Notes under the pieces: model-generated
Database searches by the model: none
Told to the model about the DNA's origin: nothing
Seen by the model: only the letters and a program-made list of their open reading frames with translations
Program-made: the position numbers and the translations under genes
Assembly (NCBI GenBank): GCA_013335175.1
Contig: JAAXWC010000014.1
Span: forward strand, 1-35,171
Origin: Candidatus Roizmanbacteria bacterium
GTDB taxonomy: Bacteria; Patescibacteriota; Microgenomatia; UBA1406; GWC2-37-13
Direction of reading: 5' to 3'
DNA: 35,171 nt
In this document: positions 16,318 to 32,775 of the stretch, piece by piece
Numbering within the stretch: the first letter of the stretch is position 1
How the letters are laid out: every line of letters starts with the position of its first letter

Positions 16318-18345
16318 ATGGAACTTCTCTTTCCCATTGCAATCGAGATTTTTTGTATCAGCGCGGTTTTATCTTTTATCCTTCAAAAAGTAAAAAGTGT
16401 GAGCCATTTTACCAGTAGCGGACTCTCTCTTATCGGCTCCGCGTTTATGCTTGTATTTGCGGGATATATCCTCCTTACTCATACCGTGATCAATGTTGTT
16501 TTACCAACATCATTTCCTTTATTCACCCTTAGCTTTCATGTAGATGGTCTTGCGGCATTTTTTATCTTTGTGATTGCGCTCATTGCGCTGCCTGCAACAC
16601 TGTACGGAATTAGTTATCTGAAACCTTACTATACCCAGTACAATACGGGGGTATTCGGATTTTTTTATAATCTTTTTTTACTGAGCCTATTTTTGGTTGT
16701 TACTTCCTACAATGGGCTGTACTTTTTATTTGTTTGGGAGTTGATGTCTCTCAGCTCTTTTTTCCTTGTTATTTTTGAACAGAACCATCCATCAACAATT
16801 AAAGCTGGATTTATTTATTTTGTAATGACGCACGTTGCAACCGGATGTATTTCCTTTGCTTTTATCTTGCTTTATCTTGCAACTGGCTCTTTTGATTTTT
16901 CCGTAATAAAATCTCACGCAGAATTGATTCCCATGACTATAAAAAGCATAGCGATCATTTGTTTCATTGTTGGGTTTGGCACGAAGGCAGGTATTATTCC
17001 GTTTCATATTTGGCTTCCAAAAGCCCACAGTGCCGCTCCTTCACACGTATCTGCGCTTATGTCGGGCGTTATGATTAAAATGGGTATTTTTATGTTTTTC
17101 CGTATGTTTTTGGATGTGTTAACCCCAACTCCGTGGCTTGGATTTACCATTCTTTTTTTGGGAGCTCTTTCTTCAATTCTCGGAGTTTTGTATGCATTGT
17201 CGGAGCACGATAGCAAGCGATTGCTTGCCTATCACAGTATTGAAAATATTGGAATTATCTTACTCGGACTCGGTGGGGGATTAGTATTTCTTACTCTCAA
17301 CTATCCTGCATTTGCCATCATTTCTATTATTGCAGGTCTCTATCACACCATTAACCATGCTATTTTTAAATCGCTTCTCTTTTTAAGTGCTGGTTCCGTT
17401 ATATCCCAGACGCATACCAGAAATATCGAAGAATATGGAGGACTAATAAAAAAAATGCCCTATACTGCTTTATTCTTTTTAATCGGTGCGATTGCCATTA
17501 CCGGATTACCTCCGTTTAACGGGTTTGTGAGCGAATGGCTCACCTTTCAAGGATTGTTTAAAGGAATTGCGTTCGAAGGAATGTTGATAAAAGCTGCCTT
17601 TATTTTTGCAGGGGTATGTCTTGCCTTCACCGGCGGCCTTGCCGCAGCTTGTTTTGTAAAAGCATTTGGCATAACCTTTCTTGCACGGCCAAGAAGTGTC
17701 GAAAGTCAGCATGCCAAGGAATCTTCATTCCCCATGGTTCTGAGTATGGGCTTTTTAGCCGCATTGTGTCTTGTGTTTAGTATTGGGGCACCCTATGTTA
17801 TAGCTCAATTGCGGGTTTTGGTTCAGGCCCTTGGCTCTTTTACCCGTCATACAAGTGCTATGGTGCCCGCTCATGAAAAACTCACCGATTTAGCCGCTTT
17901 GAATTTTAATACCATGGGCCTTTTGCTTGGCTTTACCATAAGTGCCGCTGTTGTGTATGCTCTTGTATACCTCGTAAGTCATCGGCAAAAGACGGTAATC
18001 GGATCTATTTGGGAGTGTGGATACACAGAGATTACGCCGCGAATGGAAATCACGGCAACGGGATTTTCCCGCACGCTGATACTTATTTTTAAGGGAATTT
18101 TCCGACCAACAAAACAGGTTCATGTAGAGTATGTCGATGCAGATATGCGGTATGCTCCAACAAAAACTGTTACCCTTGGTATTTCTGACATCTACGAAAA
18201 CAATATGTACTATCCACTCGTGAAGCTTTTCCATCGAATATCTATTCAGGTAAAGAAAATCCAGAGTGGAAATATCAACGCCTATTTGTTGTATATATTC
18301 TTAACCTTAATTGGATTGCTATTAGTTGCACGCTATTACCTATGA
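16318..18345 (+). CDS. hyfB: HyfB/HycC-like proton-translocating membrane subunit
   Basis: A 675-residue polytopic protein of the NuoL/Mrp-antiporter family, closest in layout to HyfB/HycC. The ion-path residues of the family are present: E141 in FVWELMSLSS, K223 in GFGTKAGIIPFH, H230, K235 in WLPKAHSAAPSHVSA, and K254 in GVMIKMG. The LLAYHSIENIGI segment is also intact. The C-terminal part is the hydrogenase-type extension, with WECGYTEITPRMEITATGFSR and a final helix after IQSGNINAYLLYIF. It should form the distal ion channel of the membrane arm. Its stop overlaps the next start in ATGA. Nothing is truncated. Confidence 0.95.
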   Translation: MELLFPIAIEIFCISAVLSFILQKVKSVSHFTSSGLSLIGSAFMLVFAGYILLTHTVINVVLPTSFPLFTLSFHVDGLAAFFIFVIALIALPATLYGISYLKPYYTQYNTGVFGFFYNLFLLSLFLVVTSYNGLYFLFVWELMSLSSFFLVIFEQNHPSTIKAGFIYFVMTHVATGCISFAFILLYLATGSFDFSVIKSHAELIPMTIKSIAIICFIVGFGTKAGIIPFHIWLPKAHSAAPSHVSALMSGVMIKMGIFMFFRMFLDVLTPTPWLGFTILFLGALSSILGVLYALSEHDSKRLLAYHSIENIGIILLGLGGGLVFLTLNYPAFAIISIIAGLYHTINHAIFKSLLFLSAGSVISQTHTRNIEEYGGLIKKMPYTALFFLIGAIAITGLPPFNGFVSEWLTFQGLFKGIAFEGMLIKAAFIFAGVCLAFTGGLAAACFVKAFGITFLARPRSVESQHAKESSFPMVLSMGFLAALCLVFSIGAPYVIAQLRVLVQALGSFTRHTSAMVPAHEKLTDLAALNFNTMGLLLGFTISAAVVYALVYLVSHRQKTVIGSIWECGYTEITPRMEITATGFSRTLILIFKGIFRPTKQVHVEYVDADMRYAPTKTVTLGISDIYENNMYYPLVKLFHRISIQVKKIQSGNINAYLLYIFLTLIGLLLVARYYL

Positions 18346-19265
18346 TTTTAATTCTTATCAAATTACTCATCCTTCCGCTTTTGTCACCCCTTTGTATTGG
18401 TATTATCCGGAAAATTGATGCATTTATGCAGAATCGGAGAGGGGCATCTGTAATTCAGCCGTATTTTGATTTATGGAAACTATTTCACAAAGATGAAGTG
18501 ATTTCGCCAGATGCCTCGTGGATATTTCGAGCAACACCCTACATTATCTTTGCGATCAGTCTTATGCTTCCTCTGGGAATTCCATTGCTATCTCAGGTTG
18601 AATCGTGGGGGTTTTTCAGTGATTTCTTGGTTGTTGTATATCTCCTTGCTCTGATGACCTTTTTTCTCGCCCTTGCAGGGATCGATACAGGGAGCATGTT
18701 CGGAGGATTTGGCGCAAGTCGAGAGATGACCCTAAGTGCGTTAACAGAGGCGGTATTGGTCTTTTCACTTCTGCCTATTGCAATTATTTCACAGACCTCC
18801 AATCTTATTTTGATGGCAACGACAACATCGAGTTTGCCACCCATAACCTACTTTCCTATTTTCATAGCATTTATCGGATTTTTTATTGCCCTTATGGCTG
18901 AAACGGGGAGAATCCCATTTGATAATCCCTCTACCCATTTGGAATTAACCATGATTCACGAGGCTATGATTATTGAATACTCTGGAAAACGGCTTGCGCT
19001 CATTGAATGGACTGCTGCAAATAAATTTTTGTTCTTTGTACTTTTGGGTGCAAATATATTTTTCCCCTATGGACTCAGCACAACAACGAATCTATTAGAC
19101 CTCCTTATTGCAGTAGGGGTTGTAGCTATGAAAGCACTACTGCTTATTGGGGCTATTGGAATTATTGAATCTAGCATTGCAAAATACCGACTATTTCGAC
19201 TTCCCGATTTGTTATTAACGGGGTTGATTCTTGGCATTATTTCACTCATTGCAACCAATATTTAA
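18342..19265 (+). CDS. hyfC: HyfC/HycD/NuoH-like membrane subunit
   Basis: A 307-residue membrane protein of the NuoH/HycD family, which links the hydrophilic arm to the ion-pumping subunits. Early it has RRGASVIQPYFDLWKLFHKDE, the amphipathic loop that normally contacts the electron-transfer arm. Later it has AETGRIPFDNPSTHLELTMIHEAMIIEYSGKRLA, the conserved acidic loop of the family. Eight or so hydrophobic segments are visible. It is of normal length, overlaps HyfB by four bases (ATGA), and is followed by HyfE after 10 bases. The conserved Glu residues of the central cavity are kept, so the coupling path appears intact although the redox partners are not. Confidence 0.95.
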   Translation: MILILIKLLILPLLSPLCIGIIRKIDAFMQNRRGASVIQPYFDLWKLFHKDEVISPDASWIFRATPYIIFAISLMLPLGIPLLSQVESWGFFSDFLVVVYLLALMTFFLALAGIDTGSMFGGFGASREMTLSALTEAVLVFSLLPIAIISQTSNLILMATTTSSLPPITYFPIFIAFIGFFIALMAETGRIPFDNPSTHLELTMIHEAMIIEYSGKRLALIEWTAANKFLFFVLLGANIFFPYGLSTTTNLLDLLIAVGVVAMKALLLIGAIGIIESSIAKYRLFRLPDLLLTGLILGIISLIATNI

Positions 19266-19275
19266 CTCGAAACCT

Positions 19276-19926
19276 ATGGACCATCTAAATTTACAGCTTA
19301 TATTTGCAGCCAGCATATTTTTATCTGCTGTTTTTATGAATGTAGTTCGTAAAAATACAATTCTTGCTTTTATCTATCTCTGTCAATCTACGATAATCGT
19401 GCTTATGCTTGGTTTTGAAGCATTGCAACAAAGTTCCTGGGAACTTTTTGGCATCGCATTCAGTATGTTTTTCGTTAAAGTGATCATTGCACCAAACATA
19501 TTTACAAAGTTCATCAAAACGAAACAATTAAATTTAACCGCCTCGACCTACCTGAATTTACCCATTACCCTCATTGTAATTGTACTGCTTACATTTTTTG
19601 CCCAATCAGATGTTTTTACTTCGATATCAATTGTGAATTCTGATATTGCTCCTTTTCGGGTGCTCTTGCTCGGGAGTATATTTTCTTCATTTTTTCTCGT
19701 CATAAACAGACGGGGAGTATTGTCGCAAATAATTGGCATTTTATCGCTCGAAAACTGTATCTTTGCCCTCGGAAAATTTCTTGCGGTAAAACAGACAGCA
19801 AGCTTGGAACTTGGGATGCTGTTTGATGTCTGTTTTTGGATCGTTATTTTATTTATTTTTGCCCAACTGATTCATACGCATTTTCGTTCAATGGATACCG
19901 TCGAAATTAATCATCTTAAGAAATAA
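19276..19926 (+). CDS. hyfE: HyfE-like membrane subunit
   Basis: A 216-residue membrane protein, the usual length for HyfE. It has five to six hydrophobic segments. The NuoK-like signature appears as NRRGVLSQIIGILSLENCIFALGKFL, with a conserved Glu in a helix. An ATG at 19276 preceded by ACCT is chosen; an in-frame extension reaches back into HyfC but adds nothing conserved. It follows HyfC by 10 bases and precedes HyfF by 12 bases in one operon. In hydrogenase-4 type complexes this subunit lies between the HyfC and HyfF modules. Confidence 0.9.
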   Translation: MDHLNLQLIFAASIFLSAVFMNVVRKNTILAFIYLCQSTIIVLMLGFEALQQSSWELFGIAFSMFFVKVIIAPNIFTKFIKTKQLNLTASTYLNLPITLIVIVLLTFFAQSDVFTSISIVNSDIAPFRVLLLGSIFSSFFLVINRRGVLSQIIGILSLENCIFALGKFLAVKQTASLELGMLFDVCFWIVILFIFAQLIHTHFRSMDTVEINHLKK

Positions 19927-19938
19927 TTAAAAATACCT

Positions 19939-21384
19939 ATGGCACTACTTATTTTACTCATTACCCCGTTATCTTCGATCATTTTCTATTTGCTATCCAA
20001 AAAGAGATTTCTGTATGAAATTATTGCCGCAGTATCAGCCGGTGTTGAATTTGTAACTGGAATGTTCATGGTTTCGCAAGTTGTCGTAAGTGGACACTAC
20101 GCCGTGGGTCCTTACTTTTCTCTGAATGCATTTGGAGCGCTTCTATTAGCAATATGCATCTTTATTGGGCTCATTACCACATTCCACTCTATTGGCTATC
20201 TACGGGCCGAACAACAAAAAGGAATGTTGGGATTAAAACGTATCCAAGTATATTATGTGTTAAAAAGTCTGTTCATGCTTTCCATGTTTGGAGCACTTAC
20301 CACAACCAATCCAATTGTTATGTGGATTTCGATTGAATCAACAACATTGTCATCGGTGTTTTTAGTCGCATTATTTAATCGAAACACAGATATTGAAGCC
20401 GCATGGAAATACCTTATTATTAACTCCGTTGGATTATTGCTCTGTCTTTTAGGGACACTCTTATTTTTGGGGCAAGCTTCTGGAAATGGCTTTGCAACGT
20501 GGAACGATTTAATGGCAAAAGCTGCTCATTTTAACCCCATTGTTAGTAAGGTTGCTTTTGTATTTGTGTTAATCGGGTTTGGGACAAAAATGGGATTGGT
20601 CCCTATGCATACATGGAAGCCCGATGCCTATAACAAGGCTCCACTGCCCATTGTAGCTCTCCTTTCGGGAGCGTTACTCAATGTCGCCTTTTTTGCTCTC
20701 CTTCGCTTTAAACTGATTGTTGATGCTGCCATTGGGCCCGCTTTTTCTCAAATACTATTTATTAGTTTTGGCATTATTTCTATCGCTCTTCCGGCGTTCA
20801 TTATCTTTACCCAGCTAAATTACAAGCGAATGCTTGCCTATTCAAGTATTGAACACGCAGGGATTATGTTGCTTGGATTCGGTTTTGGAGGAATCGGAAT
20901 ATATGGAAGTATTTTGCACATTCTCTACCATTCTTTTGCGAAATCGCTCCTTTTTTTGGTCTCAAGTAATATCGCGGTGCGATACAGTTCATCAAAGGTG
21001 AAAGATGTAACCGGAATGATCAAAATTTTGCCATACAGCAGCGTACTTCTGATCATTGGTTTTCTCACGATTACCGGTATCCCGCCGTTCGGGATCTTTT
21101 TTAGTGAGTTGTATATCTTTATCGCCGGATTTCATTACTCCATTGTTCTTACCTCAGTAACGATTGTTTTGCTCCTGCTCGTTTTTATCGGACTCTTTAA
21201 ACAATACACCGCAATGCTATTTGGTGAACCTCCGGCAGGAATGCATAAGGAAAAATATAATTTTTGGACCATTATTCCCTTAGTTTTTTTAGCTGTGGTT
21301 CTCGTAATCACTAGTATTTACTTGCCAGAACCATTACAAGTACTTTTGAAAGAAAGTAATAAGTTATTCGCCGGGACACTATGA
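19939..21384 (+). CDS. hyfF: HyfF-like second antiporter-type membrane subunit
   Basis: A 481-residue NuoN/NuoM-family protein. The expected ion-path residues are E133 in WISIESTTLSS, K217 in GFGTKMGLVPMHTW, H224 and K227. The position that carries a Lys in HyfB (MIKMG) is Asn here, in LLSGALLNVAFF. The segment LAYSSIEHAGIMLLG and the discontinuous helix region TITGIPPFGIFFSE are also present. Together with HyfB it gives the membrane arm two antiporter-like modules. The stop overlaps the start of the large-subunit gene in ATGA, so translation is probably coupled. Confidence 0.95.
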   Translation: MALLILLITPLSSIIFYLLSKKRFLYEIIAAVSAGVEFVTGMFMVSQVVVSGHYAVGPYFSLNAFGALLLAICIFIGLITTFHSIGYLRAEQQKGMLGLKRIQVYYVLKSLFMLSMFGALTTTNPIVMWISIESTTLSSVFLVALFNRNTDIEAAWKYLIINSVGLLLCLLGTLLFLGQASGNGFATWNDLMAKAAHFNPIVSKVAFVFVLIGFGTKMGLVPMHTWKPDAYNKAPLPIVALLSGALLNVAFFALLRFKLIVDAAIGPAFSQILFISFGIISIALPAFIIFTQLNYKRMLAYSSIEHAGIMLLGFGFGGIGIYGSILHILYHSFAKSLLFLVSSNIAVRYSSSKVKDVTGMIKILPYSSVLLIIGFLTITGIPPFGIFFSELYIFIAGFHYSIVLTSVTIVLLLLVFIGLFKQYTAMLFGEPPAGMHKEKYNFWTIIPLVFLAVVLVITSIYLPEPLQVLLKESNKLFAGTL

Positions 21385-22949
21385 CATACTCAGAAATCAT
21401 CAAACAGTTTCTTCCTCAATCGGTTTCGCCAGAATTAAGTACCAATTTGATACTATTTGCCGTCCCTCACGATCGGTTGACGGAGATTTGTACAACGCTC
21501 TATACCACGCATAGCCTTCCCCTCAAAACAATAAAAGCAGCAGATGAACGAGCAACCAATGGGGTATTCAAAATTATGTATATATTTGCTGTTCCACACG
21601 AAAAATATTTTCTTGTACCGTATGTAGCGGTAAAAGAAGGGCAATCATTTCCTTCTCTTGTAAAACACATCTATGAATCATTGCGATACGAACAGGAAAT
21701 TCACTCTATGTTTGGATTACTACCGGAAGGCAATGTATTCTTACAGCCGTTTATTCTTCATGAAAATTGGCCACAAACTTCATTTCCGCTCCGCAAAGAT
21801 TTTAAAGGAACGACCCGCCCGGCTATGATAGACGCAACCGGACCATTTCAAAAAATCGAAGGGGAAGGGATCTATGAAATTCCTGTAGGCCCCGTACATG
21901 CGGGGATTATCGAACCAGGACATTTCCGTTTTAGTGTAGCGGGAGAGGAAATTATTTCGCTTGAGCCAAAACTTGGGTATACCCACAAAGGTAGTGAAAA
22001 ATTGTTTGAGTCATTCACCATTCCTGAGATGATTAAACTATCAGAACGTATCTCTGGGGATACTTCTTTCACCCAAAGCCTTGCATTTTGCCAGGCAATT
22101 GAACAGCTCGGCGGCATAAAGGTACCAAAACGTGCCAGTTACCTCCGGGTTATCTATTCGGAACTGGAACGAATGGCAAATCATCTCAATGATGTTGGAT
22201 TTATATTGAATGATACCGCCTTCAGTTTTGGCGGCAGTTATGGTACGCGGCTTCGAGAGCAGATTATACAACTGTGCGAAGAACTAACGGGACATAGATT
22301 CCTTCGCGGAGTAAATACAATTGGAGGTGTAACAAAAGATATTTCTCCTGAAAAACAACAATCCATCGGAGCACTAGTACGCAGTTTAAAAAAGGATTTT
22401 GAAGAGCTTATTGAGATCGTTGAAAATAAAGAAACGGTGCTAAATCGTTTGAGAGGGACTGGTGTATTGGAAAAACAAACAGCGCACGATTATGGAGTGG
22501 TAGGTATTGCAGCACGAGCTTCTGATATACCAGTAGATGCACGAATTGATTACCCTTATGCGGCATATCCCGATATGAATGTTCAGGTTGCCAAACGAGA
22601 TTCAGGAGATGTTTATGCGCGATACAATGTACGAATTCAAGAGGTTATCAACGCAATTCATATAATACTTCACGCTTTGAATAATTTGCCTTCCGGGCAG
22701 ATTTCCCAACATACAACTTTAACATTAAAACCCAACTCGTACACCGTAAGTATTACCGAGGGGTGGCGTGGAGACATTGTGTATTTTGTAGCCACTGATA
22801 CAAACGGAAAGGTAAGTCGAGTTGGCATCCGAGACGCTTCGTTCCTCAACTGGCCGGCTGTTCCACAGGCTGTTGTGGGCAACATTGTTCCCGATTTTCC
22901 ATTGATCAACAAAAGCTTTAATTTATCCTATTCCGGGTTTGATCGATAA
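21381..22949 (+). CDS. HyfG-like fused NuoC-NuoD subunit lacking all four Ni-Fe ligands
   Basis: A 522-residue fusion of a NuoC-type domain (residues 1-140, with YEQEIHSMFGLLPEG and WPQTSFPLRKDF) and a NuoD / group 4 hydrogenase large-subunit domain. GPVHAGIIEPGHFRF, GYTHKGSEKLFE and YSELERMANHLNDVG are standard. In active enzymes R-x-C-G-x-C follows; here it is R223-I-S225-G-D-T228-SFTQSLAFCQAIE. The C-terminal D-P-C-x-x-C-x-D-R box is N514-L-S516-Y-S-G519-F-D-R at the very end. All four Ni-Fe cysteines are therefore Ser, Thr, Ser and Gly. It ends at the Arg, with no C-terminal peptide for a maturation protease. It cannot be a hydrogenase. Energy-converting hydrogenase-related (Ehr) complexes and complex I NuoD are the known relatives without Ni-Fe ligands. 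Confidence 0.94.
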   Translation: MTYSEIIKQFLPQSVSPELSTNLILFAVPHDRLTEICTTLYTTHSLPLKTIKAADERATNGVFKIMYIFAVPHEKYFLVPYVAVKEGQSFPSLVKHIYESLRYEQEIHSMFGLLPEGNVFLQPFILHENWPQTSFPLRKDFKGTTRPAMIDATGPFQKIEGEGIYEIPVGPVHAGIIEPGHFRFSVAGEEIISLEPKLGYTHKGSEKLFESFTIPEMIKLSERISGDTSFTQSLAFCQAIEQLGGIKVPKRASYLRVIYSELERMANHLNDVGFILNDTAFSFGGSYGTRLREQIIQLCEELTGHRFLRGVNTIGGVTKDISPEKQQSIGALVRSLKKDFEELIEIVENKETVLNRLRGTGVLEKQTAHDYGVVGIAARASDIPVDARIDYPYAAYPDMNVQVAKRDSGDVYARYNVRIQEVINAIHIILHALNNLPSGQISQHTTLTLKPNSYTVSITEGWRGDIVYFVATDTNGKVSRVGIRDASFLNWPAVPQAVVGNIVPDFPLINKSFNLSYSGFDR

Positions 22950-23821: not shown

Positions 23822-24256
23822 ATGGCAGACATACCCGTTTTTGATACATCAAACTTTACGGTAGGGGAGGAGTTTTTAAAAAAAGTGGAAAAGCCATGGG
23901 GCTACGAACTAATTTTTACCCCACCAAACATGCCGTTTACAGGAAAAATTCTCCATATAAACGCAGGAAAACGATTAAGTTTGCAGATTCACGACAAAAA
24001 AGAAGAGTGTTACTACCTTTTTAACGGACGCTGTAGCCTCGTTTTAGAGAATAATACGGGAGAACTCGAAAAAATTGAGCTGAAACCCGGCATCGGCTAC
24101 AAGGTTCTGGTGGGGCAGCGTCATCGCCACTGGGCAATAACCGACTGCGATGTATTTGAAGTTTCGACTCCAGAAATTGGCACTACCTACCGTTTAGAAG
24201 ATGATTATAAACGCCCCGACGAAACAGAACAGATGAGAAAAGAAGAGCGGAAATAA
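23822..24256 (+). CDS. Sugar-phosphate cupin, mannose-6-phosphate isomerase-like
   Basis: A 144-residue single-domain cupin. KPWGYELIF near residue 24 and the block GKRLSLQIHDKKEECYYLFNG, then GQRHRHWAITDCDVFEVSTPE, match the C-terminal isomerase domain of type II mannose-6-phosphate isomerases. The metal-ligand His and Glu positions (Q-I-H, K-E-E, H-R-H) are there. It probably isomerises or binds a hexose phosphate. Its placement two bases after the glucose-6-phosphate isomerase suggests co-translation and a joint role in fructose-6-phosphate use. The C-terminus is a short charged tail. The exact substrate is not certain. Confidence 0.82.
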   Translation: MADIPVFDTSNFTVGEEFLKKVEKPWGYELIFTPPNMPFTGKILHINAGKRLSLQIHDKKEECYYLFNGRCSLVLENNTGELEKIELKPGIGYKVLVGQRHRHWAITDCDVFEVSTPEIGTTYRLEDDYKRPDETEQMRKEERK

Positions 24257-24275: not shown

Positions 24276-24304
24276 TTGACAAGCGTTTGGTGAACAACTA
24301 TACT
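24276..24304 (+). promoter_or_regulatory. Strong promoter of the attenuated DAHP synthase unit
   Basis: TTGACA (24276-24281), a 17-base spacer and TATACT (24299-24304). This is the best match to a sigma-70 consensus in the window. Transcription would start near 24311, about 6 bases before the leader peptide ATG. Confidence 0.8.
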
Positions 24305-24316
24305 ATGCATACTTTT

Positions 24317-24379
24317 ATGAAATCAACCGTTTTATTTTTTTACTTTTATTTTTTCCAACGCTTTGGCGGGAAGATGTAA
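24317..24379 (+). CDS. Aromatic leader peptide (attenuation)
   Basis: A 20-codon frame, ATG 24317 to TAA 24377-24379. The peptide is MKSTVLFFYFYFFQRFGGKM, with six Phe and two Tyr, seven of them in one run at codons 7-13. Such a run directly after a strong promoter and before a conditional terminator is the hallmark of leader peptides like those of phe and trp operons. The ribosome would stall in the run when charged tRNA-Phe or tRNA-Tyr is short. The Gly-Gly codons that follow (24365-24370) form one arm of the antiterminator, so ribosome position decides the fold. The frame is too short to be a conventional gene. Confidence 0.85.
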   Translation: MKSTVLFFYFYFFQRFGGKM

Positions 24380-24415
24380 GAGTGGAATAAAACACGAAGA
24401 CACACCCGCCGCAAG
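24361..24415 (+). promoter_or_regulatory. Antiterminator hairpin of the attenuator
   Basis: GGCGGG at 24365-24370 pairs perfectly with CCCGCC at 24405-24410. With a U-G pair and one bulged C the helix can extend to CUU (24361-24363) with AAG (24413-24415). It uses the 5' arm and loop of the terminator, so the two hairpins exclude each other. A ribosome halted in the Phe/Tyr run leaves this arm free; one that reaches the stop codon covers it. Confidence 0.75.
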
Positions 24416-24427
24416 GCGGTTTTTTTT
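24405..24427 (+). terminator. Attenuator terminator before DAHP synthase
   Basis: CCGCC (24406-24410), a GCAA tetraloop and GGCGG (24415-24419), followed by eight T (24420-24427). It is an intrinsic terminator located 30 bases before the DAHP synthase start and after the leader peptide. Confidence 0.88.
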
Positions 24428-24457
24428 GGTAAAAAATTATTAATTATTTATACAACA

Positions 24458-25444
24458 ATGATAGAACGAGGAGGAGAAGTAGAATTGATCGCCGGACCAT
24501 GCTCAATTACCAACGAGAATACGAATCAAATCTTGAGTATGGCACAGATAACCGTAAAAAATCTAAAAGGGAAATCACAGCTCGCCCTTTGGGGTACACG
24601 TGTTGTGGGACTCAAATCTCGTACCGGATTCAATAGCGAAGGAATAGGAATGGGAATTGATTTTGGGGCAGTGATGCAAAACATAATGATTTTGTCTCAA
24701 GGTAATAGAAACCAAGAATTGATCGTACCACCTAGTGTTGAAGTAGCGAAGACGATTGCACAACAAACTGGTCTCGCAATATGTACCGAAATCGTAGCCC
24801 CATATGCGCAAGTTAGCGTGCTTGAACGAGAAATGAAGAATAGAAAAATGTTACTTTGGAACCCCGCAGTTGAGCAATTAGGTTGGTCCCTAATCCCAAT
24901 AGCAGTTGCTGCACAAAGAAATAACTGGGATGTGGGCATAAAAAATGGAAAATGGCTTGGCTGTCATTTAGCCGATGCTCATAATCCTGAGTCTAACGAA
25001 CAAACAGACTTAGAAAAAACTTGGACTGGCTTAGCTTCCTATGTTCAAAACACAGGCGTTCCGCTTGAAAATATTGCATTTATCCATCGTGGAGTGACCG
25101 TACCAGATAGAGAAAACTTTCGGAATGCACCAGTTCACGAAGTGGCACGCCGGACAAAACGCACTACCCGAGGTGCAAAGCTCTACTTTGATCCATCACA
25201 TTCTTTCGGTCCAAACATGCGCGATCACATTTTACAAGGCACCATTAATGCTTTGTTAATGACAGATGGAAACGATTGGCTCTATAACGGAGCACTGATT
25301 GAAGCAGGTGACTCACCAACAGATACAAACCAGCATATTACTTTGGGTGAATTAGAATCACTCGCGCGTGAAATTTCTCGATACAGGAATCTTGTAACCC
25401 CCAAGCAATCAACAAACGTATTCTGTTATAATGCTCAAACTTGA
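24458..25444 (+). CDS. 3-deoxy-7-phosphoheptulonate (DAHP) synthase
   Basis: A 328-residue enzyme of the DAHP/KDO8P synthase family, predicted to join phosphoenolpyruvate and erythrose-4-phosphate as the first step of aromatic amino acid synthesis. Family motifs are ELIAGPCSITNEN at the N-terminus (metal ligand Cys15), GLAICTEIVAP, AFIHRGV, LYFDPSHSFGPNMRDHI (metal ligand His) and EAGDSPTDTNQHITLGELESL. The sequence alone would not fully separate DAHP from KDO8P synthase, but the Phe/Tyr attenuator upstream strongly favours an aromatic pathway role. It lacks an obvious extra regulatory domain. It is probably the only structural gene of its unit: a palindrome and a new promoter follow. The start ATG 24458 has no Shine-Dalgarno site. 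Confidence 0.85.
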   Translation: MIERGGEVELIAGPCSITNENTNQILSMAQITVKNLKGKSQLALWGTRVVGLKSRTGFNSEGIGMGIDFGAVMQNIMILSQGNRNQELIVPPSVEVAKTIAQQTGLAICTEIVAPYAQVSVLEREMKNRKMLLWNPAVEQLGWSLIPIAVAAQRNNWDVGIKNGKWLGCHLADAHNPESNEQTDLEKTWTGLASYVQNTGVPLENIAFIHRGVTVPDRENFRNAPVHEVARRTKRTTRGAKLYFDPSHSFGPNMRDHILQGTINALLMTDGNDWLYNGALIEAGDSPTDTNQHITLGELESLAREISRYRNLVTPKQSTNVFCYNAQT

Positions 25445-27075: not shown

Positions 27076-28224
27076 ATGGATTTAAGAAATTATACCGACG
27101 CAAAAAATCGCCGAACTGCGCTCGAGCAGGCACTAAAAATTACCTTACCCGCGATCGGGTCCTTCAGTTTATCAGAAGACTTTGCAAGCCATCACAACTG
27201 TGAAAATATGGTGGGCGCCGTACAAATTCCGCTTGGAATTGCTGGTCCGCTCGATTTTTCAGATGACAAAAAACATACTGTGTATATACCGCTTGCTACA
27301 ACAGAAGGAGCTCTTGTTGCTTCTGTAAATCGGGGAATAAAGGCAGTCACCTTGAGTGGTGGAGCTTCTGTAACAAGCCATCGGGCAGGAATTTCCCGCG
27401 CTCCTGTTTTTGTGGTAACAAATGGAAAAGCGGCAAACGTTTTTATAGATTGGATTGAAACGAATCAAAAATTATTAAATCAAATAGCACAGGAAACATC
27501 TACCCATTTGAAACTTATCTCGATAAAAACATGGCATAGCGGAAGAAATGTATTTGTCAGATGTTCCTATGATACTCAGGACGCAATGGGCATGAATATG
27601 GCTACTATAGCTACTGAAAAAATGGTATCGTTCATTACAAAAGAAACGGGAGTAGTCTGCGCTTCAGTATCCGGGAATATGTGTGGAGATAAAAAAGCGA
27701 ATATGCTCAATGTTATTGAAGGACGAGGAATTCAGACATGGGCAGATGTTGAATTAAGTCCAGAAATAATCAAAGACGTGTTGAAAACAACGGTTCCTCA
27801 ATTCGTGGAAACCGCGCATCGAAAACTTGATATCGGCTCCCGAATGTCCGGGACTATTGGTGCAAACGCACATGCTGCAAATGTTTTAGCCGCGATTTTT
27901 CTTGCAACAGGACAAGATATGGCTCATGTTGGAGAGGCATCAACGGTTATGACAGAGGTAGAACAGGGAAAAAATGGTGTTTATGTATCTGTGTATATCC
28001 CCGACCTGCCTGTGGGGACCGTGGGCGGGGGGACAGCCCTCGAGACACAACAGGAATGTTTAAAGATTATGGGAATTACCGGAGCAACGGAAGGGGAAAA
28101 TGTTAAGTTTTTTGCGCATTGTATCGCGGGTGTTGTCCTCGCCGGAGAAATATCTCTCCTAGCCGCACTTTCCGCCGGACATTTGTCTTCCGCTCATCAA
28201 AAGTTAGCACGAGGTACCTCCTAA
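27076..28224 (+). CDS. hmgA: HMG-CoA reductase, class I type
   Basis: A 382-residue soluble enzyme that reduces HMG-CoA to mevalonate with NADPH, the committed step of the mevalonate pathway. Motifs in order are ENMVGAVQIPLGIAGPL, TTEGALVASVNRGIKA (catalytic E77), DAMGMNM, SGNMCGDKKANMLNVIEGRG (catalytic Lys; the class usually has Pro-Ala where this has Ala-Asn), SRMSGTIGANAHAANVLAAIFLATGQDMAHV, and a C-terminal His in AGHLSSAHQKLARG. This set matches the class I enzymes of archaea and eukaryotes and not the class II enzymes of many bacteria. No membrane anchor is present. It opens a six-gene operon; the next gene starts 3 bases later. Confidence 0.95.
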   Translation: MDLRNYTDAKNRRTALEQALKITLPAIGSFSLSEDFASHHNCENMVGAVQIPLGIAGPLDFSDDKKHTVYIPLATTEGALVASVNRGIKAVTLSGGASVTSHRAGISRAPVFVVTNGKAANVFIDWIETNQKLLNQIAQETSTHLKLISIKTWHSGRNVFVRCSYDTQDAMGMNMATIATEKMVSFITKETGVVCASVSGNMCGDKKANMLNVIEGRGIQTWADVELSPEIIKDVLKTTVPQFVETAHRKLDIGSRMSGTIGANAHAANVLAAIFLATGQDMAHVGEASTVMTEVEQGKNGVYVSVYIPDLPVGTVGGGTALETQQECLKIMGITGATEGENVKFFAHCIAGVVLAGEISLLAALSAGHLSSAHQKLARGTS

Positions 28225-28227
28225 TCT

Positions 28228-29268
28228 ATGATAGGCATTATTGGATATGGGAACTATATCCCTCGATACCGCTTGCAACTGTCTTCTATTGCCAAAATGT
28301 GGGAAAAAGATACAATGGAAATTGTTGGTGGTTTAAAGGTTCAGGAAAAATCAGTTCCGTATTATGATGAAGATATTGTTTCGATGTCTATTGAAGCGGG
28401 AAGAGAGGCACTTTCTATGGCGCAGCTGCACCCTCATGAAATTGGAGCACTGTACATTGGCTCAGAAAGTCATCCGTATGCGGTAAATCCCTCATCTAGC
28501 ACAATTGGAGAGTACTTAGAAGTGGGAAATAGCTACTTAGCAGCCGATTTAGAATTTGCGTGTAAGGCGGGAACTGCCTCCATGCAGCTTATTTATTCAC
28601 TGATTAACAGTGGTCAAATAAAATATGGTTTGGCCTTTGGTGCAGATACCGCACAAGGTAAACCACATGACGCCCTTGAATATACTGCAGCTTCTGCAGC
28701 AGTTTGTTTTTTGTTGGGGGATGATTCCGCAAAACCAGTGGCACTGATCCAATCCACTTCTTCCTATACTTCAAATACACCAGATTTTTGGCGTCGAGAT
28801 GGTAAAAAATATCCATCTCATTTCGGTCGATTTACCGGAGAACCTGCATATTTTCAACACATTGTGGAAGAATCAAAACAGCTTCTCAGTCAGAGTGGTA
28901 CAAAGCCAGAAGATTATGACTACTGTGTGTTTCATATGCCAAACGGAAAATTTCCCCGCGTTGTAGCTAAAAAATTAGGATTCACCGATGCTCAACTTGC
29001 ACCTTCACTAACAGTTGATCACATCGGCAATCCCTATTCCGCGTCTTCACTGTTGGGGCTTGCGGCTGTATTAGATACGGCAAAACCAAATCAGAAAATA
29101 TTTATGGTTTCGTATGGGTCTGGTGCAGGAGCAGATGGATTTATTCTTCAGACCACAAAATTTTTACAAAAAAAACGTACAAACCATCGGACAGTTCAAG
29201 AATGTATAGACGATAAAATCATGATCTCTTACGAACAGTATTTACGATTTACCCATACCTTATCTTAA
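28228..29268 (+). CDS. Hydroxymethylglutaryl-CoA synthase, archaeal type
   Basis: A 346-residue thiolase-fold enzyme that condenses acetyl-CoA with acetoacetyl-CoA to HMG-CoA. The length and the layout IGIIGYGNYIPRYRL, ESHPYAVNPSSSTIGEYL and DLEFACKAGTASMQ (nucleophile C112) match archaeal HMG-CoA synthases. YCVFHMPNGKFPRV carries the catalytic His, and DHIGNPYSASSLLGLAAVL follows. It acts in the cytoplasm. In archaea it forms a complex with an acetoacetyl-CoA thiolase and a DUF35 protein. Here these are the next two genes, which strongly supports the same channelled arrangement. The start has CT at -2/-1 and no Shine-Dalgarno site. Confidence 0.94.
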   Translation: MIGIIGYGNYIPRYRLQLSSIAKMWEKDTMEIVGGLKVQEKSVPYYDEDIVSMSIEAGREALSMAQLHPHEIGALYIGSESHPYAVNPSSSTIGEYLEVGNSYLAADLEFACKAGTASMQLIYSLINSGQIKYGLAFGADTAQGKPHDALEYTAASAAVCFLLGDDSAKPVALIQSTSSYTSNTPDFWRRDGKKYPSHFGRFTGEPAYFQHIVEESKQLLSQSGTKPEDYDYCVFHMPNGKFPRVVAKKLGFTDAQLAPSLTVDHIGNPYSASSLLGLAAVLDTAKPNQKIFMVSYGSGAGADGFILQTTKFLQKKRTNHRTVQECIDDKIMISYEQYLRFTHTLS

Positions 29269-29278
29269 AAATCTTAAA

Positions 29279-30427
29279 ATGAATATTAGCATCATCGGAA
29301 CAGGAATGACACGTTTTGGAGAATTATGGAAGGTTTCTTTGCTCGATTTAGCACATGAAGCTATGGATCAGGCCTTAGAAAATTCGGAGTTACTACCAAA
29401 AGATATAGATGCACTCTTTGTAGGGAACATGCTCTCTGGTATTTTAAATAATCAGGCGAATTTAGGCTCTCTTCTGGCTGAGCATATAGGAACAGGAATC
29501 CCGGCATTTTACATGGAAGGAGCCTGCGCTTCAGGAGGGATAGCGCTTCATAACGCAATCCAAAGTGTTCTTTCGGGGCAAAACAAAACAGTGATGGTAG
29601 TTGGTGTAGAAAAAATGACGGATCATTCGGGCGATGACATTACCGCAGGGCTTATGGGCGCTGGATCTGAGGCCGAACGACAAGCCGGAGCGACCTTCCC
29701 TGGCATTTATGCATTTATGGCGCGGGCGTATATGGAACAGTACGGAGTTACCGAAGAAGATTTAGCTGCCATTTCTGTGAAAAACCATTTTCATGGATCA
29801 TTCAATAAAAAAGCACAGTTCCGTTTTACAATCACTATAAACGATGTTATGAAAAGTTCAAAAATTGCAGATCCTTTAAAACTCCTCGACTGTTCTCCTA
29901 TCACCGATGGGGCAGCGGCAATTATCATAACAAGTAAAAAAGTAAGTTCTAAAAAACGAATATCAATTACCGCAAGTGAGGTCGCCTCCGATACCGTTGG
30001 ATTATCTGGTAGATCAACGTTTACCAGTCTTTCCGCTGTAGTAAAAGCAGCTAAAAAGGCGTATCACAAAGCGAAAATAACGCCAAAGGATATTCAAATT
30101 GCGGAAGTTCATGATTGCTTTTCGATTGCAGAAGCCATCGCGCACGAAGATTTGGGTTTTTCATCCCCTGGTCAGGCAACCAAAGATATTATAGAAGGGA
30201 AACGAACCATTGGTACGGGAAATTTGATAGTAAATCCGTCAGGCGGTTTAAAAGCGTGCGGACATCCGGTAGGTGCAACTGGAATTAAACAAATTGTAGA
30301 GTTGACAGAACAGCTACGGGGCGACGCCGGGCCTCGTCAGGTTAATAATGCGAAGATTGGCCTCGCTCACAATGTAGGAGGAAGCGGTACGATAGCTGTC
30401 ATACATATTTTGCAAAATAATTTATGA
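29279..30427 (+). CDS. Acetyl-CoA C-acetyltransferase (acetoacetyl-CoA thiolase), archaeal type
   Basis: A 382-residue thiolase that makes acetoacetyl-CoA for the HMG-CoA synthase. The nucleophile is C83 in EGACASGGIAL. The second catalytic elements are EVHDCFSIAEAIAHEDLGF and the C-terminal Cys in KACGHPVGATG. The mid-region MEQYGVTEEDLAAISVKNH is typical of the archaeal branch that pairs with DUF35. It is of normal length with no missing residues. Its stop overlaps the DUF35 start in ATGA, consistent with tight co-expression of complex partners. Confidence 0.93.
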   Translation: MNISIIGTGMTRFGELWKVSLLDLAHEAMDQALENSELLPKDIDALFVGNMLSGILNNQANLGSLLAEHIGTGIPAFYMEGACASGGIALHNAIQSVLSGQNKTVMVVGVEKMTDHSGDDITAGLMGAGSEAERQAGATFPGIYAFMARAYMEQYGVTEEDLAAISVKNHFHGSFNKKAQFRFTITINDVMKSSKIADPLKLLDCSPITDGAAAIIITSKKVSSKKRISITASEVASDTVGLSGRSTFTSLSAVVKAAKKAYHKAKITPKDIQIAEVHDCFSIAEAIAHEDLGFSSPGQATKDIIEGKRTIGTGNLIVNPSGGLKACGHPVGATGIKQIVELTEQLRGDAGPRQVNNAKIGLAHNVGGSGTIAVIHILQNNL

Positions 30428-30726
30428 GAAATACACCGGTTACTGCTTGGAGAAAACAAAAAATAACTGCCCCGCATATTGGGAAGCAGGGGCGCATTTT
30501 GCTGTGGACATTGATTCGGGTACCTTCAGCGTTTTTTATAGATCAGGCTCCCTATCCCGTAGTCATTGCCGAAATGGAGGATGGAACTCGCGAAGTAGGA
30601 CAACTTGTAGACTGGAAACAGGAAGATTTAGTGAAAAATCGTATCGTACAAATGGTACTTCGAAAACTTCATAGCACTGATAAGGACGACATTATCCATT
30701 ATGTTATAAAATTTAGGCCGGTATGA
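30424..30726 (+). CDS. DUF35 OB-fold protein without zinc ribbon
   Basis: A 100-residue DUF35 protein, the bridging partner of thiolase and HMG-CoA synthase in archaea. Normal members are about 130 residues with an N-terminal zinc ribbon (two Cys pairs) and a C-terminal OB fold. Here the OB part is clear: WTLIRVPSAFFIDQAPYPVVIAEMEDGTREVGQLVD, then the terminal KFRPV. The zinc ribbon is missing: AWRKQKITAPHIGKQGRI goes straight into the OB fold, and the protein has no Cys. The loss could be real shortening, leaving only the acyl-CoA-contacting domain. Four-base ATGA overlaps join it to the thiolase gene before it and the kinase gene after it. Confidence 0.82.
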   Translation: MRNTPVTAWRKQKITAPHIGKQGRILLWTLIRVPSAFFIDQAPYPVVIAEMEDGTREVGQLVDWKQEDLVKNRIVQMVLRKLHSTDKDDIIHYVIKFRPV

Positions 30727-31787
30727 AAACCATTACTGCCTCTGCTCCTGGCAAACTCCACTTACTTGGGGAACATGTGGTGGTCTATGGAAATCATGCA
30801 CTTCTGACTGCCATATCGAAACGATGTACAACAACGGTATCTGAGGCAAATGAGGGAATAACTATTTCGTTTTTAGATACCCATAAGCACTGTCATTATT
30901 CTCTTGAATCCATATATCAAAAACTAAAAAGACAAAAGACAGCGCGAACTATGTATTCAGAAACCGGGGATACACACGTATTGAAAAACATGGTGAACAA
31001 TCCTTTTGATTATCTAATACTTATATTGGGAGAAATTATAACGAACATGAATAGAACAACGATTCCGTCGATTGCTATTTCAATTCATTCAGAAATTCCA
31101 GTGGGATCTGGAATGGGGTCTTCGGCAGCACTAGCCGTTTCCACGATAGGAGCCGTAACTGCATTTTTAGGAACCTCGTTCGAGAAATCCGCTATCAATG
31201 AAATCGCGCATCGGTGCGAACAATGGATTCATGGTACACCTTCAGGAGGAGACACTACCACATGTTGTGAAGGAGGGACAGTATATTTTCAGAAAAAAAA
31301 GAATGGCAAAATTGATATTGAATTGTTAGAATCGGATCATGCTTCTGAACATACTCCTGTGTGCTACATTCTTCAAACAGGTAAACCCCTGGAGTCAACG
31401 GGTGATATGGTTGCTTTGGTAAAAGCGTATAAAGAGCAACACCCAAACAAATTTGATACTATTTTACAAAGTCAAGAATCGCTCACTCAAGAACTTCGTT
31501 CTGCATTTATAGAACATGATGTAAAAAAAATGTATTACTGTATAAAAGAAGGAGAAATCAATTTAGAAAAACTTATGATTGTATCCGATAAAGCAAGAGA
31601 GTGCATACATGCAATAGAAGAATCGGGAGGATCTGCAAAAATTTCGGGGGCTGGAGGTATAAAAATAGGATCGGGGATTGTACTCGCATTTCATTCAGAT
31701 GACAATCGTATCCATACGATTGCAAGTAAATTTAAGTATCCCATTCAATCAATTATTCTTGGACAGAGAGGTTTGCATTATGAATAA
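30723..31787 (+). CDS. mvk: Mevalonate kinase
   Basis: A 354-residue GHMP-family kinase that phosphorylates mevalonate with ATP. The motifs are SAPGKLHLLGEHVVVYGN at the N-terminus, the ATP loop IPVGSGMGSSAALAVS, EQWIHGTPSGGDTTTC (the usual HGxPSGxD block with the catalytic Asp), and KISGAGGIKIGSG near the C-terminus. An insertion, about residues 55-95 (HYSLESIYQKLKRQKTARTM), is longer than in compact archaeal forms. It overlaps the DUF35 gene by four bases and the decarboxylase gene by eight, so the whole operon is tightly packed. Confidence 0.93.
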   Translation: MKTITASAPGKLHLLGEHVVVYGNHALLTAISKRCTTTVSEANEGITISFLDTHKHCHYSLESIYQKLKRQKTARTMYSETGDTHVLKNMVNNPFDYLILILGEIITNMNRTTIPSIAISIHSEIPVGSGMGSSAALAVSTIGAVTAFLGTSFEKSAINEIAHRCEQWIHGTPSGGDTTTCCEGGTVYFQKKKNGKIDIELLESDHASEHTPVCYILQTGKPLESTGDMVALVKAYKEQHPNKFDTILQSQESLTQELRSAFIEHDVKKMYYCIKEGEINLEKLMIVSDKARECIHAIEESGGSAKISGAGGIKIGSGIVLAFHSDDNRIHTIASKFKYPIQSIILGQRGLHYE

Positions 31788-32775
31788 AATTACCGTAGTA
31801 AGTCCGGCAAATATTGCATTTATCAAGTATTGGGGGATGAAAGACAAGGACTTGGTCCTTCCCAACAACGATAGTTATTCTATGAATCTTTCTCACTGTG
31901 TAACAGAAATTGTTATGGAACGGTATGAAAATCCTGAAATAAAGGAAGTATTTATTCAAGAATATACGTCAAATGATTATAAAAAAGACAACGGCCAGGC
32001 TACCGAAAAAGTTTGTGTTTTTTACAACAGAGTTAAAAATTTCTTAGGAATAAAGGATGATTATGGATTTCGTATCTATTCAAAAAATTCCTTTCCTAAA
32101 AAAGCGGGTATTGCATCTTCGGCTTCATTTTTTTCTGGATTAGCACTTACGTTTGTGACAGGGTTCGAAAAAAAACTTGATACAAAACAGCTATCTATAG
32201 TGGCTCGGTTGTCGGGTTCAGGGTCGGCAAGTCGATCTATTCCAGATGGATTTGTACATTGGCATAAAGGCACCGATTCCAATAGCTCTTTTTCAGAAAG
32301 TTGCGCTCCTCCCGAACATTGGGAACTTTGTGACGTTGTACTTATTGTAAGTCAAACCGAAAAAAAGGTTGGTTCTCAGGAAGGCCATGAAGGGGCATGG
32401 AGCAGCCCTCTATACGCCGAACGATTATCGGGAATAGAGGAAAGAGTGGAGTCAGTAAGAAAGGCGATCGAGACAAAAGACGTTGTACAATTAGGTACAA
32501 CTATTGAAGCGGATACCATATCAATGCATGCCGTGATGATGACACAGAAACATCCGTTATTTTATTGGTCGCATAAAACATTGTCTCTACTTAAAAAAAT
32601 TTGCGTACTTCGTCGGGAAGGATTGCCTTGCTATTACACAATTGATGCAGGAGAAAATGTCCATGTAATTGTTGAAAAAAAACAGGTAAAGGAGTTGGTA
32701 TCTTATTTTGCAAGGCAGGGAGAAGTGCTCGATATAATTTTAAACTCTCCCTGTGTCGGCGCACGTCAAATATAG
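31780..32775 (+). CDS. Diphosphomevalonate (or phosphomevalonate) decarboxylase
   Basis: A 331-residue GHMP-family decarboxylase that produces isopentenyl diphosphate or monophosphate. It has SPANIAFIKYWGMKDKD, LPNNDSYSMNLS, GIASSASFFSGLAL, RLSGSGSASRSIPDGFVHW, ADTISMHAVMM and the catalytic Asp in YTIDAGENVHVI. The usual YWGK is YWGM and the usual DAGPN is DAGEN, changes near the phosphate and Asp regions. They leave open whether the substrate is the mono- or diphosphate. No phosphomevalonate kinase, isopentenyl phosphate kinase or isomerase is encoded in the window, so the last steps cannot be completed from here. ATG 31780 is used; it overlaps the kinase stop by eight bases. Confidence 0.9.
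   Translation: MNKITVVSPANIAFIKYWGMKDKDLVLPNNDSYSMNLSHCVTEIVMERYENPEIKEVFIQEYTSNDYKKDNGQATEKVCVFYNRVKNFLGIKDDYGFRIYSKNSFPKKAGIASSASFFSGLALTFVTGFEKKLDTKQLSIVARLSGSGSASRSIPDGFVHWHKGTDSNSSFSESCAPPEHWELCDVVLIVSQTEKKVGSQEGHEGAWSSPLYAERLSGIEERVESVRKAIETKDVVQLGTTIEADTISMHAVMMTQKHPLFYWSHKTLSLLKKICVLRREGLPCYYTIDAGENVHVIVEKKQVKELVSYFARQGEVLDIILNSPCVGARQI

Follow-up and report, generated by a model that had tools for sequence, protein, structure and literature searches.

A candidate aromatic-leader attenuator of DAHP synthase in Roizmanbacteria and its relatives

The leader region and its DAHP synthase gene

The window examined here is the whole 35,171-nucleotide stretch of Candidatus Roizmanbacteria DNA, and it includes a predicted DAHP synthase gene (24458–25444, + strand, 328 amino acids) preceded on the same strand by a compact leader region. 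This region opens with a sigma-70-type promoter (24276–24304) made of TTGACA (24276–24281), a 17-nucleotide spacer and TATACT (24299–24304). It matches the consensus at 11 of 12 positions and is the top promoter-like site within 3 kb. Starting 12 nucleotides past the −10 box is a 20-codon open reading frame (24317–24379) that runs from an ATG at 24317 to a TAA at 24377–24379 and reads MKSTVLFFYFYFFQRFGGKM, with similar leaders present in relatives. The transcript is expected to carry a 5′ UTR of only about 5 nucleotides. Direct reading of the putative sensor codons (24335–24355), TTT TTT TAC TTT TAT TTT TTC, gives Phe-Phe-Tyr-Phe-Tyr-Phe-Phe.

The rest of the leader contains overlapping pairing partners. 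Segment 1 (24329–24364) overlaps the sensor codons and forms the 5′ side of a hairpin spanning 24329–24393 in the minimum free energy structure of the free leader RNA. By folding and pairing, segment 2 (24365–24393) comprises the 3′ side of this hairpin together with a putative antiterminator arm, GGCGGG (24365–24370), which coincides with the Gly-Gly codons. Segment 3, CCCGCC (24405–24410), can pair with this arm, an assignment examined with matched and swapped duplexes (see below). Its last five bases (24406–24410) double as the 5′ arm of an intrinsic terminator and would then pair with 24415–24419. That terminator (24406–24427), formed by segments 3 and 4, consists of a CCGCC-GCAA-GGCGG hairpin (24406–24419) followed by TTTTTTTT, a tract of eight T residues (24420–24427), and relatives have terminators in the same place. 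The original prediction had listed a near-consensus promoter, a 20-codon leader with an FFYFYFF run, an antiterminator arm made of the Gly-Gly codons and a GNRA-loop terminator with eight T residues; each part was found where it had been placed, and in the order given.

When the window was scanned for an aromatic leader ORF followed by a terminator, a single element was returned; the reverse strand of the window and six shuffled windows gave none. A looser pattern uncovered no second attenuator in the same genome. No gene neighboring the DAHP synthase gene belongs to the same pathway. Elsewhere in the window, translations judged by eye resemble a mevalonate-pathway cluster (27076–32775), with look-alikes of HMG-CoA reductase, HMG-CoA synthase, a thiolase-like protein, mevalonate kinase and diphosphomevalonate decarboxylase. 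Membrane-protein genes at 16318–22949, judged in the same way, resemble a hydrogenase-4/complex I-type cluster.

The sequence evidence for the identity of the enzyme is modest, with a score of 28 bits against a cut-off of 25.5 for Pfam PF00793 and a PDB sequence match at E = 3e-4. The AlphaFold model (pLDDT 94.6) most resembles the DAHP synthases of T. maritima (1rzm, Z 27.3, superposing at 1.9 Å over 235 residues) and P. furiosus (4c1k, Z 26.9), with KDO8P synthases close behind at Z 25.8. Conserved residues Cys15, Lys53, Arg55, His248, Glu282 and Asp289 are present, with Lys53-Ser-Arg55 as the KxR motif. The modelled TIM barrel, the metal ligands and this motif place the protein among type I beta DAHP synthases. 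The predicted structure settles the superfamily, while the operons of relatives point to DAHP as the product in a way that falls short of proof. Because the structural match covers only the catalytic barrel (T. maritima residues 92–338), nothing in this protein corresponds to the N-terminal domain of the T. maritima enzyme, and regulation may fall to the attenuator instead.

Aromatic leaders in related genomes

The order to which this genome belongs comprises 83 genomes, and 20 others encode a full-length DAHP synthase of the same type, approximately 38–50% identical. An aromatic leader and terminator lie upstream of 18 of these 20 in the DNA initially fetched, and of 19 when longer upstream DNA (L109) is included. 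The elements are positioned either directly before the DAHP synthase gene or in front of an operon whose first gene is sugar-kinase-like (judged by translation) or encodes a transaldolase, and the promoter recurs at the same position relative to the leader.

A scan of genome contigs with the single protein gave no match; with a profile, 63 loci were recovered from named genomes, many of them in the same genomes as the 20 order relatives. These loci span Roizmanbacteria, Levybacteria, Woesebacteria, Dojkabacteria, other Patescibacteria and Elusimicrobia, and include one MAG labelled delta proteobacterium as well as Bacteroidetes and Rickettsiales MAGs. We found 34 elements at 33 of the 63 loci, compared with one on the reverse strands and none in shuffled sequences. 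None of the Bacteroidetes loci has a credible element, and the match at one of them (L149) was dropped as weak and probably due to chance, which leaves 32 named loci, mostly from Patescibacteria, that carry an FYFYF-type leader and a terminator. Two further elements (L101, L118) are evident by eye. The original prediction had staked itself on conservation, and this expectation was borne out strongly, with the aromatic run and the paired arms kept upstream of most orthologous DAHP synthases.

Two Rickettsiales-labelled MAGs (L143, L148) have conserved leader-like peptides that contain AFYFYFYI and end in SANGAFYFYFYI before a stop codon, located from about 175 to 97 nucleotides upstream of DAHP synthase. 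These were left out of the count because the strong hairpin that comes next has no T-run; they may represent another kind of aromatic attenuator. Matches in a pattern scan of the whole phylum were about as numerous as those of a reversed-pattern control, indicating that FYFYF/GCGG/CCGC in its exact form is frequent only within this family. Other leader forms were found by inspecting the DNA upstream of DAHP synthases.

The aromatic run mostly holds five to nine aromatic residues, in which F and Y often alternate and W sometimes appears. Both Phe and Tyr are present in 33 of the 34 runs, and 11 also include Trp. In most leaders the in-frame ATG falls 6–12 nucleotides past the −10 box, and transcripts are therefore predicted to start on the initiation codon itself or no more than a few bases from it, making them nearly leaderless. 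On several occasions a tandem pair of aromatic attenuators precedes one gene (L006/L094, L027, L028 and, from the pattern-scan matches described below, L035), and the second copy in some cases has a Shine-Dalgarno-like sequence.

A pattern scan of the 83 order genomes made independently of DAHP synthase gave matches in 33 genomes, most of them clear aromatic leaders and some due to chance. Genes behind these leaders encode an ADH synthase (L035), tyrosyl-tRNA synthetase (TyrRS, L054), a HisC-like aminotransferase with tyrosyl-tRNA synthetase next in line (L036) and another aminotransferase (L047), and some (L038, L042, L045, L051) have no known function. The DAHP synthase gene of L005 stands ahead of genes for chorismate mutase, prephenate dehydrogenase and prephenate dehydratase, which carry the pathway on to Tyr and Phe. 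As judged from annotation of these sequences, the amino acids predicted to be sensed agree with the genes predicted to be regulated across relatives. The window element likewise resembles ribosome-mediated transcription attenuators in that its gene lies in the pathway of the sensed amino acids, given the fold and family of the DAHP synthase and the Phe/Tyr genes of relatives.

Leaders of the FFFFF or FYFYF kind, mostly accompanied by a terminator, occur at five loci (L051, L052, L038, L042, L045). The proteins behind three of these leaders (L051, L038, L042) gave no Pfam or NCBIfam match, and it is possible that all five loci represent aromatic-linked genes. Four loci in order relatives (L157, L158, L162, L163) have short Trp-bearing leaders, for example MKNKFTKSIWQSWHTLKQEDLL and MNIQQMEIAIWQSWQTLKEDLL, each ending at a stop codon, with a terminator just before trpE, an anthranilate-synthase-family gene. 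By their sequence and position, these are probably Trp attenuators in the same lineage.

The remainder of the aromatic pathway presents a puzzle. Family-by-family searches of the genome containing the window, that of an uncultured bacterium (1.45 Mb, rated 100% complete), detected no dehydroquinate synthase, shikimate dehydrogenase or chorismate synthase, and likewise no type II chorismate mutase, prephenate dehydratase or Chorismate_bind (anthranilate synthase) family member. The same models detect their targets in most or all control genomes. Within the order, matches were obtained for chorismate synthase in 23, dehydroquinate synthase in 27 and Chorismate_bind in 11 of the 83 genomes, and four other genomes with a DAHP synthase (G019, G033, G057, G068) similarly gave no match to chorismate synthase or dehydroquinate synthase. 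The attenuated DAHP synthase thus looks orphaned. The claim that the leader controls a DAHP synthase holds as far as sequence can carry it, but the benefit of inducing the enzyme here is unexplained because the rest of the pathway went undetected, and the physiological logic is to that extent incomplete. Missing contigs would account for this, or else the enzyme has another role. It is conceivable, if rather doubtful, that the steps leading from DAHP to Phe and Tyr are genuinely absent from this genome and that DAHP made during aromatic starvation enters an uncharacterised route, is processed by non-homologous enzymes or is exchanged with a partner cell.

Co-variation between the arms was assessed with matched versus swapped duplexes, since aligning entire elements with MAFFT yielded no consensus structure, the terminators being of differing length. 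Among the 34 elements, duplexes between segments 2 and 3 average −16.4 kcal/mol when matched and −12.0 kcal/mol when swapped, a difference equalled in 0 of 20,000 permutations. Keeping a single element for every different terminator arm (25 elements) gives −16.5 and −11.6 kcal/mol, again with 0 of 20,000 permutations. For example, the GGGAGG/CCTCCC pair is found in L127, L128 (where the arms read CGGGAGGTT and AACCTCCC) and L113; L106 pairs GCGGTT (CGCGGTTAG) with AACCGC, L144 pairs GGGGC with GCCCC, and L101 pairs GGATCGG with CCGATCC. The predicted antiterminator logic is retained across quite different arm sequences.

These data also bear on whether the terminator might merely serve the upstream gene (23822–24256), which ends only about 150 nucleotides away, with the aromatic ORF present by chance. 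We give this explanation next to no credence, as a near-consensus promoter lies between that gene and the terminator, the 34 elements observed far outnumber those in the shuffled (0) and reverse-strand (1) controls, the arms co-vary, and leader and arms are conserved in relatives.

Predicted RNA states and the proposed mechanism

The leader RNA folds at −36.2 kcal/mol, compared with −22.0 kcal/mol for dinucleotide shuffles (z = −4.1), and is more stable than all 200 of the 200 shuffles. In this structure the aromatic codons and their flank, from 24329 onward, pair with 24365–24393 in a 1:2 hairpin that hides the antiterminator arm. The original prediction was right about the antiterminator and terminator and had overlooked this fourth segment; with the hairpin included, all four classical attenuator segments (1:2, 2:3 and 3:4) are present. 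Across the 34 elements the 1:2 hairpin is favored more weakly, with a mean z of −1.1 relative to shuffles; 82% of the elements fall below the mean of the shuffles.

The effect of a ribosome was simulated by removing the RNA under an assumed footprint, whose edge was set 12 nucleotides past the first base of the A-site codon, and folding the remainder at equilibrium at 37°C, so that the values do not describe folding kinetics. The terminator of the window leader has a probability of 0.99 in the free RNA and also 0.99 with the ribosome at the stop codon. Placing the ribosome on an aromatic codon, whether the first, the middle or the last of the run, lowers this value to 0.00–0.01 and brings the antiterminator to 0.97–0.99. 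The switching between alternative structures that the earlier reading had anticipated from masking by a ribosome is therefore reproduced by these folds. Averaged over all 34 elements, the terminator forms with a probability of 0.97 when the ribosome is at the stop codon and of 0.24–0.49 when it is stalled; predicted termination is higher at the stop codon than at the middle aromatic codon in 29 elements, and not so in the other five.

Masked folding and arm co-variation indicate mutually exclusive terminator and antiterminator structures, as in ribosome-mediated transcription attenuators, and by sequence the element also begins like them, with a promoter and then a short ORF rich in end-product codons. 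The parts and their order, their conservation, the co-variation and the three predicted states can all be read from the DNA. The interpretation offered originally, ribosome-mediated attenuation, is supported by conservation, co-variation and masked folding, and we regard it as highly likely that the window element is an attenuator of the trp/phe type controlling the DAHP synthase. From these features we infer ribosome stalling, termination and a response to Phe and Tyr in the cell.

In the proposed mechanism, RNA polymerase would start about 5 nucleotides before the leader ATG with a ribosome close behind. When charged tRNA-Phe and tRNA-Tyr are both ample, the ribosome would reach the stop codon and mask segment 2, leaving segments 3 and 4 to pair and end transcription at the T8 tract. 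A shortage of either charged tRNA would stall the ribosome within FFYFYFF, where it would mask segment 1, and the freed segment 2 would bind segment 3, block the terminator and permit transcription of the DAHP synthase gene. Without translation, the 1:2 hairpin would form and termination would again result. By this scheme, DAHP synthase is very probably made only when charged Phe or Tyr tRNA is scarce.

Nascent peptides can stall ribosomes via the exit tunnel, as TnaC does, and the leader peptide itself might arrest the ribosome in response to a free aromatic amino acid. A few relatives do share the residues TA.GGVG after the run. However, the shared GGVG corresponds to the codons of the segment 2 antiterminator arm, and other arms encode other residues. 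Moreover, F, Y and W can replace one another in the run and interruptions of it occur, no residue outside it was seen to be conserved across the set, and a stall within the run favors expression, which suits starvation rather than excess. Peptide-dependent arrest is accordingly very improbable.

T-boxes often control amino-acid genes in other bacteria, which invites the alternative that the leader RNA binds a ligand or tRNA, as a riboswitch or T-box, and that the peptide is incidental. Yet neither the window nor any of ten relatives has a match to an Rfam family, T-box included, at or above the gathering threshold, the best sub-threshold leader match is to Phe_leader, itself a ribosome-mediated attenuator, and the leader ORF and terminator occupy nearly all of the transcript ahead of the gene. 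We judge a binding leader of this kind to be very improbable and favor ribosome-mediated attenuation.

Relation to known attenuators

The mechanism is classical and already known from pheL and from C. glutamicum aroR. The nearest described system is the aroR leader preceding the DAHP synthase gene aroF in Corynebacterium glutamicum, which contains Phe-Tyr-Phe and is reported to act by ribosome-mediated attenuation (PMC4046766; Neshat et al. 2014, cited in PMC11802643). According to these accounts it responds to limitation for Phe and not for Tyr (PMC4046766; PMC11802643), and the leader peptide of C. glutamicum ilvBNC is described as being made without a ribosome binding site (reference 42 in PMC4046766). 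The likeness to aroR, drawn from its published description rather than its sequence, lies in the short Phe/Tyr leader before a DAHP synthase. The elements found here differ in belonging to another phylum, in having runs of mostly 5–9 aromatic residues, in also preceding aminotransferase and TyrRS genes and in occurring as tandem copies.

The window leader also shares topology and order with the enterobacterial pheL-pheA leader (Rfam RF01859, Phe_leader). It aligns to the full-length model (1–125) at 29.7 bits (E = 0.0019), below the gathering score of 55 that defines membership, and ten relatives also score below threshold. In contrast to pheL-pheA, the window element would regulate DAHP synthase rather than pheA, and it includes Tyr codons and has almost no 5′ UTR. 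The Escherichia coli trpL-trp operon attenuator shares the four-segment 1:2, 2:3 and 3:4 logic but differs in the sensor amino acid and genes, with a match to the Rfam Trp_leader model of only 13.4 bits.

These elements indicate that candidate-phyla bacteria with reduced genomes sense Phe, Tyr and sometimes Trp at the codon level over a small aromatic regulon, through nearly leaderless genes for peptides of about 20 residues that escape gene callers. They also raise the question of why some DAHP synthases keep an aromatic switch where the remaining pathway goes undetected. Being compact and readily identified, the family can help to annotate aromatic genes in uncultured lineages. Among the papers searched for attenuation by leader peptides in Patescibacteria or other candidate phyla, no report turned up, and one may exist elsewhere. 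Compared with aroR by description only, the aromatic-leader attenuators of these DAHP synthases appear to be an undescribed, new family of a known mechanism.
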